From Methylococcales bacterium (lineage in GTDB: Bacteria; Pseudomonadota; Gammaproteobacteria; Methylococcales; Methylomonadaceae), in assembly GCA_030949405.1 (NCBI GenBank), contig JAUZSN010000002.1, positions 2,590,553 to 2,654,552 on the forward strand: 64,000 bases of DNA, given 5' to 3'. The translations under genes and the position numbers were made by a program. How positions within the stretch are numbered: position 1 is the first letter of the stretch; each line of letters opens with the position of its first letter. The notes under the pieces were generated by a model that searched no databases, was not told the DNA's origin, and saw only the letters and a list, made by a program, of their open reading frames with translations. Positions 1 to 6,771 of this stretch are shown here, piece by piece.

Positions 1-1169
1 AAAATAGAGAGCATTAAACGATTTGCCCCTAAAAAATTGTGTTGGGCAAAATCATCACGCTTAGGATTATCTCTCGGACGACTGGCAATCGCAACGCCAT
101 CTGCTCGCTCCATATGACATTGCTGACAGCTTTTTGTTTGTGCAAAATCACTGTTTAGCCATTCACTATAGACCATTTGTTCAGGAAACTCATCTGCAAC
201 TGTCTGACTTAAAATAGTTCCATTTTCATCAGCATAAGGGGTGGTTAAATCATGGCAACTCGCACATAACTCCGAGGTTTTTATATGCTCACTATAGACA
301 GGGGTAAAATTAGCCATATTCCGCATTGGCATCGTATTAACATTTTGATACGGACCATAAATAAGTCTCTCGGTACTCGTTGGATAGCTATCAATAGCAA
401 AATGTCCTGAATAACCTGCGTCCGTACCAAAAGGCGCGTTCGGAGAAATTTGATGACATAAGGAACAACTCACGCCATTAGTTGATAAATCAAAATAAGG
501 ATTATCTTTATTCAAAATACCCTCACCAAATACCGCTTGGATAGGATCATGTTGCTTTCTTGCTTCTTCATTTGCCATGGGAGCATGGCAGCGTGTACAT
601 TTATCTTGAATCGTACTCTTTAATTGCGGGGTTCTATTTATCTCACTTTTAACTTTTGCCTGCCAAAATGGATCACGGGTTGAATTTGCCATCATACTGG
701 TTTGCCATGATGAAACAATAGACACATCTTTACCCGTATCATCCTCCAATTCGTTGTGACATTGAGCGCAAATTCCCGAGCCACTAAAATGTTGTGAGGT
801 AAAAATAGTTCGCCCAAGAGGGGTATTGCTTACTTTTAATAAATTATTGACTTGAAATAAATTATCGCCTAAATATCGCAGATCAGCAGCATAGTTTTCC
901 GTACCGACAGTAATATTTGAAAGATGAAGGTTTAAATTTATACCCGTAGGTACAAGTGCAGCATTAGCAACTGTATTAATATGAGGGATCGCACGATTTA
1001 ATCTAAGTTTATTAGGGGATAAAAGCGTTAAATCAGCTTCGTAAAGCTGTTCTTGGTACTGAATAAAAGGAATAGTCAGCCGATTAGTTTCTAAATCAAA
1101 ACTAGCATCGGCTAAACAATTTCCCATGAAAAAGCTTAAACTCATGAATCTTAAAATTTGTATTTTCAT
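1..1169 (-). CDS. Secreted multihaem c-type cytochrome (3' end beyond the window)
   Basis: Partial gene; translation from the complement of 1167-1169 is open to the window edge (389 residues visible). A Sec-type signal (about residues 1-21) is followed by five CxxCH haem sites: CAQCH 134, CTRCH 191, CSLCH 235, CASCH 302 and CQQCH 348, with many other His residues that could be distal ligands. It is therefore a periplasmic or surface electron carrier; the five-haem spacing recalls the cytochrome c554 / hydroxylamine-oxidoreductase superfamily and the surface cytochromes of methanotrophs, but the exact family is not recognised. The N-terminal module (about 30-45, PFIQYQEQLYEADL) resembles one in the discoidin-like gene just upstream on the same strand, which suggests a shared surface complex. 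Likely co-transcribed with that gene across a 7-bp repeat tract. Confidence 0.85.
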   Translation of the reverse strand, partial: MKIQILRFMSLSFFMGNCLADASFDLETNRLTIPFIQYQEQLYEADLTLLSPNKLRLNRAIPHINTVANAALVPTGINLNLHLSNITVGTENYAADLRYLGDNLFQVNNLLKVSNTPLGRTIFTSQHFSGSGICAQCHNELEDDTGKDVSIVSSWQTSMMANSTRDPFWQAKVKSEINRTPQLKSTIQDKCTRCHAPMANEEARKQHDPIQAVFGEGILNKDNPYFDLSTNGVSCSLCHQISPNAPFGTDAGYSGHFAIDSYPTSTERLIYGPYQNVNTMPMRNMANFTPVYSEHIKTSELCASCHDLTTPYADENGTILSQTVADEFPEQMVYSEWLNSDFAQTKSCQQCHMERADGVAIASRPRDNPKRDDFAQHNFLGANRLMLSI

Positions 1170-1225: not shown

Positions 1226-1288
1226 ATTTCACATTTCACATTTCACATTTCACATTTCACATTTCACATTTCACATTTCACATTTCAC
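1226..1288. repeat. Nine tandem copies of ATTTCAC (7-bp VNTR)
   Basis: Nine perfect head-to-tail copies of ATTTCAC (GTGAAAT on the coding strand) overlap the last codons and stop of the discoidin-like gene and fill half of the gap to the cytochrome start. The stop codon (complement of 1278-1280) lies inside the repeat. Every reading frame of the repeat meets TGA within about 18 bases, so copy-number change would alter only the last residues of the upstream protein but would change the spacing to the cytochrome gene. Confidence 0.95.
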
Positions 1289-2285
1289 TTGTTCTACTCG
1301 GAGAAACTTCATAGGCTTTAATTTCAATTAACCCTGTATTTCCGCCCGTACTAGAAACGACATCTAAGCGAATAGAGCTTGTTTGACGATTAAGAGGAAA
1401 TTGATGCGCTTGGGTTGTGTTGGGTAAATTAAACGATAATACCTCACCGCTATCTGTTGTAATCGTAAACGTTAAAATTTTTGCGGTGTCATCACCCATT
1501 GAACGAGAAAAAACTTCGATCGTTTCAATTTGTTTTGATTCTGCTAACGTTATTTCAATAAACGCATTATCGCCATCATTATTTGATGACCACGCTGTAG
1601 AATTAGATCCATCAATAGCACTATTTGCCCCCCACGTTTCATTATTAGCCGCCCCTGAAAAATTACTACTGACGGCTGTGATTGTTGCGCCATTATTAAG
1701 TGAAAGTAAATTATTATCCGTAATTGTTCTCCCTGTTGTTTTAAATGTTGCCGCCGGTGACCAATATATTTTTCCTGTCGCATCTGTCCCTTGAACACGG
1801 TAGTAATAAAGTGTATTTTCTTCTAGTTTACTTAATATCGGGTTATGGTCAATAATTACGCCCCCATTCATACTAGGGTCGATTGCAATTTTACCAAAAT
1901 CAAGGGTTTTTCCATACACGACTGAACAGGCAAGTGGAATACTACTGACAAACGTTAATCGTGCATCGGTTGCCGTAATATCAACAATACTCGGTGCGGC
2001 CCCTTCAGTAACTAACGTTAAATTTGATAATGACGGAGGAATATCATTTTCTGATAAAACCCCATAATCACTCACTGTAAAGCCAATCGCGTTATCCTTT
2101 GTATTTTGATACTCAAAATCAGCCCAAATATACTGTAATTGTTCTTGATTTTGAAAATGAATAACGGGAACGTGTAATTTTAATTCTTTTGAAAGCGTAA
2201 CAGGGTCTGCACTTAATGGCGGTGTAATCAAGCCAAGCGAAGTAATAATAAACAGCGAAGTTTTTAAAAGCGAGTGAGGTGTCAT
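1278..2285 (-). CDS. Secreted protein with FN3-like and discoidin (F5/8 type C)-like domains
   Basis: A 335-residue exported protein. A signal peptide (about 1-26) is followed by a short module (37-57) resembling the N terminus of the neighbouring cytochrome, an Ig/FN3-like segment (about 98-185, ending YYYRVQGTDATGKIYWSP) and a C-terminal beta-sandwich (about 190-328) with the pattern of discoidin-like domains (SAIDGSNSTAWSS, then FIEITLAESKQIETIEVFS). Such domains bind glycans or surface ligands; no catalytic motif is seen. RBS AGGAAAA precedes the ATG. It lies upstream of the multihaem cytochrome and is probably in its operon. Function beyond surface binding or scaffolding is unknown. Confidence 0.8.
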   Translation of the reverse strand: MTPHSLLKTSLFIITSLGLITPPLSADPVTLSKELKLHVPVIHFQNQEQLQYIWADFEYQNTKDNAIGFTVSDYGVLSENDIPPSLSNLTLVTEGAAPSIVDITATDARLTFVSSIPLACSVVYGKTLDFGKIAIDPSMNGGVIIDHNPILSKLEENTLYYYRVQGTDATGKIYWSPAATFKTTGRTITDNNLLSLNNGATITAVSSNFSGAANNETWGANSAIDGSNSTAWSSNNDGDNAFIEITLAESKQIETIEVFSRSMGDDTAKILTFTITTDSGEVLSFNLPNTTQAHQFPLNRQTSSIRLDVVSSTGGNTGLIEIKAYEVSPSRTSEM

Positions 2286-2512: not shown

Positions 2513-3277
2513 TTATTTAGGTGTAGTAGCAGGCGTAGTAGCAGGCGTATGTCCCGCGTGTTTTCCAGGTTCAGCAGGTTTTTCACCAGCAGGTTTTTCA
2601 CCATGCATATGAGACGTTGTAAATTTTGCACGATACCCATGTAAGCCATTATAACAAGCATCCGTTTCTGCACAATAAATGGCATTAACCCCACCAATAT
2701 TAACTGAATACTGCCCCGCAGGTAATTTAGCACGATACGTAATGGTTGTTTCACCTAATTTTGAGTATTCTACCGCTTTAAATTCAAGTGTTGACCAAAA
2801 ATTACCGCCTGGGTTAAAACTTCCTTTTTCTTTTTCAGTGGTAGAATCCCACCCAGTATAAACAGAAAGAGCGGGGTATAACTCTGCCCCTGCGGTTACA
2901 TAGCTTTGACTATTATCAGTATCATCAACCTTCATTTCATAAAAGCCCCCTTGACGAGAAACTTTAATTTCTAAAACAGCATCAGCAGCTAATTCAACCG
3001 CAACCCAATCAGAGGTATGCGTCCAACCAAAGTCTGGTGCTTGAAACTGAGGTTCAAATGAACTTTTACCGCCCACGCTACCAAGAATTTCAACAGAACC
3101 ATGACGAGGCATTCTTACCGTCCACTCATAACCAATTCCTGTTCCATCTGGATCACCATATACAACGTTGGATACCTTGGTCGCAGCCATTTCATTAAGA
3201 TTCGCTGCATCTCCTGCTAGTAGGTTAGCTGAAAAAGCAAATGCACTGGTTGCTAAAATTATTGCAAATTTATTCAT
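2513..3277 (-). CDS. Secreted CorA/MopE-like candidate copper-binding protein
   Basis: A 254-residue protein with a clear signal peptide (about 1-21, cut near LLAGD). The body is beta-rich with W85-T-H87 in the segment FGWTHTSDW. MopE of Methylococcus and CorA of Methylomicrobium album are surface copper proteins in which a Trp (oxidised to kynurenine) and a His two residues later help hold Cu(I); the W-x-H here, the size and the secretion recall them, but the family call is inference. The second His ligand is not obvious (His59 and His213 are candidates). Cys202 and Cys208 may form a disulfide. The tail (222-254) is low complexity with HMHG, two GEKPA and TTPA units and extra His. The gene is divergent from a copper-type TonB receptor 0.5 kb away, which supports a copper role. 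Confidence 0.6.
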   Translation of the reverse strand: MNKFAIILATSAFAFSANLLAGDAANLNEMAATKVSNVVYGDPDGTGIGYEWTVRMPRHGSVEILGSVGGKSSFEPQFQAPDFGWTHTSDWVAVELAADAVLEIKVSRQGGFYEMKVDDTDNSQSYVTAGAELYPALSVYTGWDSTTEKEKGSFNPGGNFWSTLEFKAVEYSKLGETTITYRAKLPAGQYSVNIGGVNAIYCAETDACYNGLHGYRAKFTTSHMHGEKPAGEKPAEPGKHAGHTPATTPATTPK

Positions 3278-3400
3278 TTTGATTAATTCCTATTAAATTA
3301 TGAAAATCAAAACTAAATAAAGCAAATATTGTTCCAAATTTAGTTAAGAGTGATTATTAGAACCTTGTTTGAGAGAAGTAAATTTTTAAAACAATAAAAC

Positions 3401-3416
3401 TGTGTTAAATAACACA
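3401..3416. promoter_or_regulatory. Palindromic operator-like site
   Basis: TGTGTTA-AA-TAACACA has perfect 7-bp arms and lies about 125 bp upstream of the CorA-like start, in the region divergent to the TonB receptor. It has the form of a dimeric regulator site. The rest of 3278-3584 is AT-rich with no other clear element. The regulator is unknown. Confidence 0.35.
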
Positions 3417-3584
3417 AAAATAAGTCTTTTGACCTGTTTTATTAAAATACTTAGCTTACCTAAATTATTGTAATTTTCTCCACATCGCTATATTTACTAA
3501 AATCTAGAGGAAATATTACTAACGGTCTATTTATTGCTTATTAACCTTAGTATTTATAATAAATATATTTGCCTTTTAAAATTT

Positions 3585-3774
3585 ATGAGCAACATTAGAT
3601 TCAAATTTATTTTCTTTATTAGTCTGTTAAGCATATTAATTAATTTTTTTCCGACAATTACCTCTGTCGAAACGCTCGCTGAACAAATTGCCAAAGGAAA
3701 AGATTTATTTAGCAGAAGCCGTAACACTTAAACTTCAAGCAAATGATTTATTATTAGCCTCGCCCAGCAATTAA
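3585..3774 (+). pseudogene. Small secreted protein gene, apparently frameshifted
   Basis: From the ATG at 3585 an N-terminal hydrophobic signal-like segment is followed by SVETLAEQIAKGKDLF, then SRSRNT and a stop at 3731. One base later in phase (from 3712) the reading continues AEAVTLKLQANDLLLASPSN to a stop at 3774. Joined, the two halves give a plausible exported helical protein of about 62 residues, so a single extra base near 3711 probably broke it (or is a sequencing error). A TTG at 3534 would extend the N terminus by 17 residues. It sits 50 bp ahead of the TonB receptor. Family not recognised. Confidence 0.4.
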
Positions 3775-3824
3775 AAAATATCTATTAATCATTAATTTTA
3801 CCAGTCTCATTACACATTTACTCT

Positions 3825-5867
3825 ATGAATAAACATCCTAATATTTTAATTTTAACGCTTATCTTATCTACAAGCTTTGCTCATACGGTTTACGCTGAAG
3901 AACTTGAAAAAAATACCGAAGAAAATAGTGATTCAGATTTAACCTTAGATTCAATGACGATTTACGCAACTCCTGATAAGCCTTTTGAAAAAACCGATTA
4001 TATTAAAGAAAAACTTGGAATGGCGACTGACGGGGCCGATCTTTTAAAACAAACGCCAGGGATTTCAGTTATCCGACAAGGGGGAACCGCCAGTGATCCA
4101 CTTTTAAGAGGACTGGGGGGAACACGTTTAAATATATCCATTGATGGGGTACCGTTTGCAGGGGCCTGTAATCATCGTATGGATCCTGCAACCGCGTATG
4201 TCACCCCAGGGTCTTTTGACAGTTTAACCGTTTTGAAAGGGCCTCAATCGGTTCGTAATGGTAATTCTATTGTGGGAACCGTTAATTTTGAGCGTGAACC
4301 CATTAAGTATGATGAATTAGGTTTTCGTACTTACAGTAGTTATTTATATGGAAGTTTTAATCAACAAAATGTAACCACGAATAGCTCACTAGGATTTGAG
4401 GACGGTTATCTTTCTTATAGCCACAATAATTCTCGGGGAAGTAATTATGTCGATGGGAATGGCAACGAAATTGATTTAACGTTTTACGATACGCGAAATG
4501 ATCGTATTGCAATTGGCTATACCCCTGATGAAAATACGTTATTAGAACTTCATGGCTTGTTAAGTGAAGGCCAAATGGGTAATGCGACCATTCACATGGA
4601 TGTTACTCGTTTAGATAGATCAAGTTATGGGGTTCATTTTGAGAAATCTGAAATTAACTCATGGTTAAAAAATATAGATCTTCGCTATGACTTTACCCAT
4701 GTCAATCATGCGATGGATAACTTTACTTTAAGAGAATTAGAGCCTTTTCATGATTTTATTCTGATGGGACAATATTGGGATCGTCATTATGCTAAAGCCG
4801 AATCAACCATCGAAATAACCCCCGAAGTTGAATTAATTACAGGGGCTGAATATCGTCATGATAGTTATGATGCCAATGCCGCAGGGGGCCTAAGAGAATT
4901 TGTTGATACGCCCGAAAATATTTCACAAGAAGATCGAAATCATATTTTAGATTTTGATAATTTCGCGCTCTATACGGAATTAAGTTATCAAGCAAATGAT
5001 AATTTACGCTGGGTTGCAGGAATGCGAGGCGATAGCTTAGGCACGCGTACAGGAACAATGCACGGAGCGGGAGAAACAAGTTCGATTGAACTATCAGGCT
5101 CTAACAAACATCGTCGTCAATTATTATTAGCCAGTTTTTTAAGAATGGAATATAACTTTGATGACGTGCCTATGATGCTGTCCGTGGGTTATGGTCATGC
5201 CGAAAGAGCTTCAGATTACTGGGAAGTTTATAGTATGGATGGCTTTGACTTGAGTGCGGAAGAAAATAATGAAGTCGATGGGGTTCTATCGTATCAAGGG
5301 GACGATTTAAGAGCCGAAATTTCAGGATTTTATAGCCATATTAATAATTTTATCTTAGTTCATCGGGGGGATTCTGCGGCAAATATTGTCGCTCACCGTA
5401 TGGGCGGTGAATTTAGTGCCGCTTATGATTTACATGAATATGTCACCTTACAAGGCAATGTTTCCTATGTTTATGGAAAAAACCTCACTCAAAATGTTGC
5501 CTTAGCTCAAACGCCGCCTTTAGAGGCGATGGTCGGTCTTAATATTCATTATGAAAATTTTAGTGCCACCATTAATACCCGCTTTGTTGATAAGCAAAAA
5601 CGTATTCATGAAGGCTACGGTAATGTATTAGCCCTTGATACAACCCCTACAATAGGCTTTATTACTAGTTCATTAAAACTTGCTTATAAACCACATTCTG
5701 CTATAGAATTCAAATTTGGTGTTGATAATATTTTTGATAAGGCTTATACCGAACATTTAAATCGTAATGCCTCAGCCAGTGCAGGCGGCCCTTCCGTCTT
5801 AAAGCTTAATGAACCGGGTCGTTCTTTTTGGGGACGAATTTCTATTGATTTTGATTACCCCAGTTAA
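3825..5867 (+). CDS. TonB-dependent outer-membrane receptor, OprC/NosA copper type
   Basis: A 680-residue outer-membrane receptor: signal peptide (about 1-24), plug domain (about 45-160, with LRGLGGTRLNISIDGVP and LTVLKGPQSVRNG), then a 22-strand-type barrel ending in an aromatic C-terminal region. C115-N-H-R-M119 fits the CxxxM motif and H295-A-M297 the HxM motif that bind copper in Pseudomonas OprC; MDPATAY directly after the first motif also matches the OprC/NosA family. I infer energised uptake of copper or a copper complex. The gene is divergent from the CorA/MopE-like gene and 52 bp ahead of a secreted protein, giving a small copper-handling cluster. Confidence 0.85.
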   Translation: MNKHPNILILTLILSTSFAHTVYAEELEKNTEENSDSDLTLDSMTIYATPDKPFEKTDYIKEKLGMATDGADLLKQTPGISVIRQGGTASDPLLRGLGGTRLNISIDGVPFAGACNHRMDPATAYVTPGSFDSLTVLKGPQSVRNGNSIVGTVNFEREPIKYDELGFRTYSSYLYGSFNQQNVTTNSSLGFEDGYLSYSHNNSRGSNYVDGNGNEIDLTFYDTRNDRIAIGYTPDENTLLELHGLLSEGQMGNATIHMDVTRLDRSSYGVHFEKSEINSWLKNIDLRYDFTHVNHAMDNFTLRELEPFHDFILMGQYWDRHYAKAESTIEITPEVELITGAEYRHDSYDANAAGGLREFVDTPENISQEDRNHILDFDNFALYTELSYQANDNLRWVAGMRGDSLGTRTGTMHGAGETSSIELSGSNKHRRQLLLASFLRMEYNFDDVPMMLSVGYGHAERASDYWEVYSMDGFDLSAEENNEVDGVLSYQGDDLRAEISGFYSHINNFILVHRGDSAANIVAHRMGGEFSAAYDLHEYVTLQGNVSYVYGKNLTQNVALAQTPPLEAMVGLNIHYENFSATINTRFVDKQKRIHEGYGNVLALDTTPTIGFITSSLKLAYKPHSAIEFKFGVDNIFDKAYTEHLNRNASASAGGPSVLKLNEPGRSFWGRISIDFDYPS

Positions 5868-5919
5868 AGCATTAAAAAATTTATTGATACTCTTTAGTCG
5901 TTAATTTTCAGGAAACAAA

Positions 5920-6771
5920 ATGATAAATAAACAAATAAAAGCCATGACTTATGGCGTAATATCTTCATTACTCATACTTTCTTCTGCCAATGTTTCAGCT
6001 TCTTTTGACGGAACTCAAATGAATGTTAGATGGGAAATTTGGGATAAAGTAAACCCTGGTAAGGGGGGATCTGTCTTAGGGGTGACCGATGAAATTGATA
6101 TTGTTGCCAGTAATACCACTAGCCCCGATATTAAAGATTTTCATAAGAGCCGTGGAACCTTTGAGCTTTGGGACATAGATTTTACTACCCAAGGCATTGA
6201 TCTTACTTATACCAGCATTAATGTACGAGATGTTAATCATCAATATATGTATATGTCAGCGATGGGGTTTCATTTTGAAGATACTGAAAATAATTTACCT
6301 GACATTGTCAGTGTAACCGTGGCCAGTGAATTTACTCCCTTTGGCTTTAACCCTAATTTATTAACCTTTGATGCCAATAATATTTATGTCGATTTAACGG
6401 GGTCTATGTGTCATGTCGATGGGATGGCGAGTATGCCTTCGTGTACAAATATATCAAGCCCAACAGGCTATGATAATCAAATAAAACTCACCATTGTATT
6501 TGCTGATAATGGCGAAGTTAAAGTCCCTAGTACGAATACGGATAATGCACGTATTGATAGTTTATACGCTTGGGCAGAACAAAAATACCCTCAATTTTTC
6601 TCTTCCTCACAACAATCAACCGATATACAAGGTTATTACGCACGTCACTACCCTGAGAATGATATTTACTTAGGTTCAAAAGAGGGTCGTCTCTATGTAG
6701 TCGGTGCGCCCTTTGGTGGATTACTTGATTTAGGCGATTTAGAGAAATGGTATACTGATTTATCTTTATAA
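5920..6771 (+). CDS. Secreted protein of unknown function with a Met/Cys/His-rich patch
   Basis: A 283-residue protein with a signal peptide (about 1-28). The N-terminal part (30-200) is beta-rich and contains SMCHVDGMASMPSC (162-175) and HQYMYMSAMGFHF (107-119), both dense in possible copper ligands. The C-terminal 75 residues (from IDSLYAWAEQKYPQFF) match a module often found at the end of exported proteins in this kind of bacterium, with YYARHYPENDIYLG and a final LGDLEKWY. It follows the OprC-like receptor by 52 bp and ends at a terminator, so the two are likely co-transcribed and this may be its periplasmic or surface partner. The metal role is inference. Confidence 0.7.
   Translation: MINKQIKAMTYGVISSLLILSSANVSASFDGTQMNVRWEIWDKVNPGKGGSVLGVTDEIDIVASNTTSPDIKDFHKSRGTFELWDIDFTTQGIDLTYTSINVRDVNHQYMYMSAMGFHFEDTENNLPDIVSVTVASEFTPFGFNPNLLTFDANNIYVDLTGSMCHVDGMASMPSCTNISSPTGYDNQIKLTIVFADNGEVKVPSTNTDNARIDSLYAWAEQKYPQFFSSSQQSTDIQGYYARHYPENDIYLGSKEGRLYVVGAPFGGLLDLGDLEKWYTDLSL

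Follow-up and report, generated by a model that had tools for sequence, protein, structure and literature searches.

Is a relative of CorA and MopE, the copper-repressed, copper-binding surface proteins (PMC3912023), tied to a receptor that could import the copper? The question is raised by a 64,000-nucleotide stretch, the window, of a Methylococcales bacterium (GenBank assembly GCA_030949405.1, contig JAUZSN010000002.1; G000:C2:2590553-2654552 in our numbering, where G numbers are genomes, G000 being the source genome, and L numbers are loci). The genome measures 2.98 Mb and is 96% complete, and the organism is presumably a methanotroph, judged from its kinship with same-genus relatives. Near the start of the window, an earlier note had described three open reading frames: a CorA/MopE-like secreted protein, an OprC-type TonB-dependent receptor and a second secreted protein, here called P3. 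All three are present, which confirms the observation; its interpretation in terms of copper is partly supported. Based on the analysis below, the cluster probably, though far from certainly, constitutes a surface copper-acquisition module that links a CorA/MopE homologue to an OprC-type copper importer.

Copper-related residues in the receptor, the CorA-like protein and P3

The plug and the beta-barrel of the receptor were recognized by PF07715 and PF00593, both above their cut-offs. Its best NCBIfam model was TIGR01778 (TonB-copper) with 461.9 bits, just under the cut-off of 472.45, and the next model scored 108.5 bits; among the eight receptors found in Methylococcales, only that of G191 reaches the cut-off (472.5 bits, neighbours in frame included). 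OprC entries were the sole PDB matches at E up to 0.001 (phmmer; six distinct sequences, the best being 6fok, E 9.7e-102). The phmmer alignment to 6fok places C115-N-H-R-M119 on Cys143/Met147 and H295-A-M297 on His323/Met325, i.e., exactly on the CxxxM-HxM ligands through which OprC takes up ionic copper (PMC8610252), and the proposal that the receptor carries both OprC-type motifs was borne out. The four ligands are identical in all six aligned orthologues (alignment A6, which includes the window and leaves out the G001 receptor) and in 11/11 sequences of a wider alignment, chosen by similarity to the receptor, that includes a second, unlinked receptor of the same genome. This second receptor (G000:C2:1337030-1338952; L210 7025-9124) shows CANAM and HRM where the four ligands lie, scores 203.9 bits to TIGR01778, and lies near transposase-like open reading frames, by our reading of the sequence.

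The plain sequence of the CorA-like protein gave no Pfam, NCBIfam or PDB match at E up to 1, and a profile of seven sequences gave only a chance match; a profile of 42 sequences and a predicted fold were needed. The AlphaFold model (42 sequences, mean pLDDT 91.3) is closest in fold to CorA of Methylomicrobium album BG8 (4BZ4), with Z 15.4, 14% identity and an rmsd of 2.6 over 146 residues (Foldseek E 1.7e-6), followed by MopE of Methylococcus capsulatus (2VOV; Z 13.6), with the remaining rows at most Z 10.1. The 42-sequence profile retrieves 4BZ4 by sequence with E 0.0012 and aligns GW85TH87TSDW on GW62TH64HSNW of CorA, within the common motif GWTHxSxW, which puts W85 and H87 at the positions of Kyn62 and His64; together with His114, these two residues are the copper ligands of CorA (PMC3912023). 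Support for the relationship with CorA and MopE comes from the fold and the remote profile; plain sequence gives none. The W-x-H pair is present in 42/42 sequences of the alignment used (A3), a count that is partly built in because one search pattern held W-x-H, and in 7/7 of alignment A1, the sequences of which were found by a whole-protein search (7/61 genomes matched, two of them weakly, E 0.001 and 0.07). A3 is a chosen set, leaving out L057:9034 (masked stretch), L047, several extra paralogues and long verrucomicrobial proteins.

The second copper histidine of CorA is replaced in the window protein. Classic CorA homologues were located with a piece of 4BZ4 (25/161 genomes matched; the gene was recovered in 11 of the 12 regions taken), and hhalign of the CorA-like family against these 11 gave a probability of 97.8, with His114 falling on column 152, where the window protein has glycine; the alignment crosses gaps here and the placement rests on a neighbouring H-x-[YF] pattern. 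Column 152 of A3 holds His in 33/42 and Gly in 9/42 sequences, the window among the nine, and a wider set of 68 (from 119 matches, after removal of duplicates and of proteins >420 aa, preselected by the W-x-H pattern) contains 57 His, 10 Gly and 1 Asn. All Gly152 carriers are Methylococcales of a methanotroph subclade, and most relatives keep His. Column 213 is His in 33/42 sequences of A3, and His213 of the window protein could stand near the copper site. The His-rich C-terminal tail, which the sister proteins in G004 and G005 lack, or His213 may serve as a replacement ligand. The proposal of a CorA/MopE-like protein with a W-x-H pair therefore stands for the fold, the remote profile and W85-T-H87, and is not supported for the full copper site.

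P3 carries GSMCH(x3)M(x2)MP(x)C and YMY(x4)G, two motifs unchanged in all seven aligned sequences (window included), so the Met/Cys/His patches described earlier in this secreted protein are not due to chance. The N-domain that carries them is restricted to 13/311 Methylococcales genomes (one of which, G272, has partial tandem matches only, up to 99 bits), and the C-terminal domain of ~75 aa is more widespread. A model of the N-domain (pLDDT 73) gave no fold matches at E up to 0.001. Two di-haem corB-type proteins, at L208 5838-8171 and L269 4897-7191, hold a stretch that matches P3 (phmmer E 1.8e-20 and 1.3e-20); by our reading, this would be the P3 C-terminal domain, making these proteins putative natural fusions that link both.

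Linkage in Methylococcales and spread of the family

Among the 311 Methylococcales genomes surveyed, the receptor was counted in eight (TIGR01778, E up to 1e-100) and a strong CorA-like match, i.e., at least 230 bits, in 17, with any match at E up to 1e-6 in 56. P3 accompanies the receptor in 8/8 genomes and a strong CorA-like gene in 7/8, the eighth being G001, which is 73% complete. Ignoring kinship, the chance of the receptor-P3 and receptor-CorA-like overlaps is 6e-13 and 3e-9; these values greatly overstate the independent evidence, since the eight genomes represent four genera. Rearrangements that keep pairs of genes together are more telling than the co-occurrence numbers. At L269 (G190) corB diverges from oprC-corA-corA, at L208 it diverges from oprC alone, at L209 oprC faces P3, L042 holds corA-corA-P3, and L039 has all four members. 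Conserved synteny in other methanotrophs, suggested earlier as a check, was thus seen as linkage in four genera, but two of the six same-genus genomes, G002 (94% complete) and G003 (83%), lack all three genes. The homologous cluster of G127 holds a different TonB receptor, whose residues at the aligned positions read CPNHM and HTM; it scores 155.8 and 151.5 bits for haem receptor models versus 139.3 for the copper model.

Other receptors were observed near CorB-type genes. Upstream of such genes, L150 (5303-6172) and L138 (4876-5718) encode CorA/MopE-like proteins with GW(A/G)MH rather than GWTH, and about 2.6 kb past the CorB-type genes lie TonB receptors (L150 11029-13353, L138 11545-13809) with CSNHM/HLM at the OprC positions. 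In other genomes, two CorA/MopE-like proteins with a CorB-type neighbour gave no PDB match at E up to 0.01.

A single contig scan, using two patterns of which one contained W-x-H, identified 63 CorA-like loci in Methylococcales, Nitrosomonas (e.g., L045, L046, L048), Nitrospira (e.g., L055, L066, L071, L079), one deltaproteobacterium and Verrucomicrobia (28 loci in the range L059-L097). A di-haem gene is present in 32/35 loci outside Verrucomicrobia and in 0/28 within, with some contigs being short and some loci coming from the same genome. Several verrucomicrobial members are embedded in proteins of at least 1000 aa, and PEP-CTERM-like tails terminate many of those from Nitrospira and Verrucomicrobia. 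On one contig of G012 (C45; L012 and L013), three CorA-like paralogues are packed into about 9 kb, with multihaem cytochrome genes and di-haem genes of two types around them.

The deleted di-haem gene and the remainder of the cluster

The earlier description of a compact three-gene cluster is not supported as worded, because a MauG/CorB-like member of it is internally deleted here. Discoidin-like and multihaem cytochrome genes, which that description did not include, also belong to the cluster (Table 1). Sister genomes G004 and G005 encode an intact di-haem c-type gene of 475-476 aa between the CorA-like gene and the receptor, and the gene is also intact at L037, L039 and L271. What is left in the window are the first 42 and the last 21 codons plus the stop codon, with the ~410 codons of the middle gone and the frame broken at an out-of-frame junction at 3709-3711; the two pieces match the G004 gene by tblastn with E 4.5e-17 and 1.2e-5. 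Three MauG-type genes above the PF03150 cut-off exist elsewhere in the genome. The contig measures 2.97 Mb and an assembly break at the deletion is not obvious, although the deletion may be a strain or assembly variant. The contig of G001 begins inside corB, the 3' part of which is kept, followed by the receptor and P3. Homologues of the deleted gene at L010 and L039 contain two CxxCH motifs each and score below the cut-offs (TIGR04039, 22.0 and 30.7 bits; PF03150, 18.2 bits for L010), and the L039 homologue had no PDB match at E up to 0.001. The divergent intergenic region upstream of the remnant is partly conserved in G004 and G005; no regulator site was identified in the aligned positions 3278-3584.

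Pairwise dN/dS values of the five intact cluster genes against the sister genomes range from 0.07 to 0.16. For the CorA-like gene, the two pairs that include the window give 0.139 and 0.148 against 0.096 for the corB-keeping sister pair, i.e., slightly raised but still low in a comparison of three pairs; any relaxation of selection on this gene after the deletion would be small. With dS near 1, these ratios would not register a deletion of recent date.

The multihaem gene continues beyond the window start without interruption (tblastn, a single frame with 84% identity over 635 aa), and its relative at L011 has five CxxCH motifs. This gene and the discoidin-like gene both recur next to the CorA-like gene at L011, L038/L272, L271 and L279, and both lie on the receptor side at L039. 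Short tandem units, reading as NVKCEM-stop repeats, separate the two genes in the window at about 1170-1277. Just past P3, on the opposite strand, ends a CobD/CbiB cobalamin biosynthesis gene (PF03186; 6811-7770). As we read the sequences, L039 is bordered by a CusBA-like efflux set, and L042 and L270 each by an HMA-domain gene.

Table 1. Features of the cluster, in window coordinates
Feature	Position	Strand	Basis or remark
Multihaem c-type cytochrome, N-terminal part	1..1169	-	gene continues past window start
Discoidin (F5/8 type C)-like secreted protein	1278..2285	-	PF00754, E 5.6e-11
CorA/MopE-fold secreted protein, 254 aa	2513..3277	-	ORF, AlphaFold model, remote profile
His/Pro/Lys-rich C-terminal tail of CorA-like protein, residues 223-254	2516..2611	-	alignment
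His213 of CorA-like protein	2639-2641	-	
Gly152 of CorA-like protein, at place of CorA His114	2822-2824	-	hhalign
W85-x-H87 of CorA-like protein	3017-3025	-	
Divergent intergenic region, CorA-like gene to corB remnant	3278..3584	.	alignment
CorB/MauG-like di-haem cytochrome gene remnant	3585..3774	+	tblastn to G004 gene, junction
OprC-type TonB-dependent receptor, 680 aa	3825..5867	+	TIGR01778, phmmer to OprC
C115xxxM119 of receptor	4167-4181	+	
H295xM297 of receptor	4707-4715	+	
P3, secreted partner, 283 aa	5920..6771	+	N-domain and C-terminal domain of ~75 aa
YMYMSAMGFH in P3 N-domain	6244-6273	+	
GSMCHVDGMASMPSC in P3 N-domain	6400-6444	+	

Proposed copper acquisition and the rival readings

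The reading that we favour is the following. The CorA/MopE-fold protein would collect copper outside the cell at the surface, the Met/Cys/His patch of P3 may help to bind copper or pass it on, and the OprC-type receptor would import the copper ion through CxxxM-HxM. A five-haem cytochrome could reduce Cu(II), and the discoidin-like protein is also encoded in the cluster. The MauG/CorB-like di-haem enzyme of the relatives is thought to oxidize the conserved Trp to kynurenine, a step that would have been lost here by the internal deletion. We infer that the cluster would be repressed by copper, as OprC expression is (PMC8610252), and that its secreted proteins would hand their copper over to the receptor. 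A bolder version, which we hold only tentatively and consider rather doubtful, is that in this lineage the CorA-fold protein and P3 relay copper directly into the receptor and so provide the import step still missing from a CorA/MopE-type system, with Kyn/His/His traded for other ligands (one His with Trp/Kyn, plus His213 or the His-rich tail) and with the system working here without the di-haem maturase.

Several points weigh against the copper-acquisition reading that we favour. The association spans only four genera and is uncorrected for shared ancestry, and ten of the 17 genomes with a strong CorA-like gene are without this receptor. Among loci of at least 6 kb, no receptor of this kind was found at the CorA-like loci of G012, G022, G071 and G149 or of Nitrosomonas, Nitrospira and Verrucomicrobia, and none turned up in the classic CorA regions L184-L194; the receptor link therefore belongs to this branch and is no rule for CorA/MopE. 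To these are added the receptor score just under the TIGR01778 cut-off, the Gly152 in place of the second copper histidine, and the corB remnant being the sole corB match in the genome (E 0.17). With Gly152 in place of His114 and no corB-type enzyme in the genome, the Kyn/His/His site cannot be built in its classical form.

One rival reading is a decaying module in which the CorA-like protein can no longer mature without corB, the cluster is heading for loss in this organism and only the receptor still works. The broken corB remnant, the glycine already present at the second copper ligand and the small rise in CorA-like dN/dS are what such decay would predict, yet the CorA-like, P3, discoidin-like and multihaem genes are intact with dN/dS of 0.10-0.16, and Gly152 is common to relatives that keep corB and so does not follow from its loss. 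In M. alcaliphilum, cells mutated in the CorB homologue are reported to have kept growing on methane, and even to have grown faster (PMC3912023), so that loss of corB need not abolish function; we regard decay as unlikely. The cytochromes suggest another arrangement, in which multihaem and di-haem proteins form the core of a surface redox module, the CorA-like protein and P3 are redox partners (in Cu(II) reduction to Cu(I), for example, or in outward electron transfer) and the receptor is an adjunct. Five-haem or similar multihaem genes do occur in the CorA-like clusters L011, L038/L272, L039, L271, L279 and L280, a wider distribution than that of the receptor, and copper-responsive multihaem cytochromes are described in M. 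capsulatus (PMC4831470). This arrangement accounts neither for an importer of OprC type whose four copper ligands are all in place nor for the 8/8 link between receptor and P3, and we consider it improbable.

Two further alternatives concern the cargo and the direction of transport. The receptor might import another chelate, such as a haem-like compound, a siderophore or a lanthanide complex, in which case its copper label would reflect homology only; the diverged receptor of G127 does score higher for haem receptor models than for the copper model, and TonB receptors for lanthanides exist in methanotrophs. The window receptor itself favours the copper model by a wide difference in bits and aligns with the four OprC ligands, and we give this alternative a low probability. 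Copper defence, with the secreted proteins sequestering excess copper outside the cell, appears the most improbable: the CusBA-like efflux set at L039, beside a homologous cluster, would suit it, but CorA and OprC are copper-repressed in the described cases (PMC3912023, PMC8610252) and the cluster includes an importer.

A surface copper-acquisition module shares features with several known systems. CorA/CorB and MopE/SACCP have a di-haem gene in the locus, as do most CorA-like relatives outside Verrucomicrobia; next to classic CorA, a di-haem gene of 708-755 aa adjoins in 11/11 recovered regions, but it is of a different type from that of the present clade. The window protein, moreover, has an OprC-type receptor and P3 in its cluster, and a receptor of that kind was not found in the classic CorA regions. 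OprC of Pseudomonas aeruginosa (6FOK) and NosA have the same receptor architecture with CxxxM-HxM at the same positions, whereas the window receptor is clustered with a CorA-like protein, P3 and cytochromes. CrtA-type receptors likewise import copper through a TonB receptor, but fall in a sequence cluster distinct from OprC (PMC12914433). In alphaproteobacterial methanotrophs, MbnP/MbnH pairs with MbnT-type receptors also place a partner protein and a MauG-like di-haem enzyme near a TonB-dependent transporter (PMC3621798). The window differs in its OprC-type receptor and in a CorA-like protein that no NCBIfam or Pfam family matched at E up to 1. The earlier suggestion of an alternative to methanobactin-type uptake is not new, because CorA/MopE is already a described non-methanobactin copper system. 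A link of MopE/CorA to an OprC-type TonB copper receptor was not described in the open-licence literature searched, as far as the available parts of these papers extend.

The new part is the physical link of a CorA/MopE-fold protein to an OprC-type importer. Spanning four genera, this link is a concrete candidate, in this branch, for the step that was called unknown in 2015. The corB deletion and the Gly152 clade are natural tests of the need for kynurenine and for the second histidine. Given the reach of the family into Nitrosomonas, Nitrospira and Verrucomicrobia, the same fold may also serve copper handling in ammonia oxidizers.

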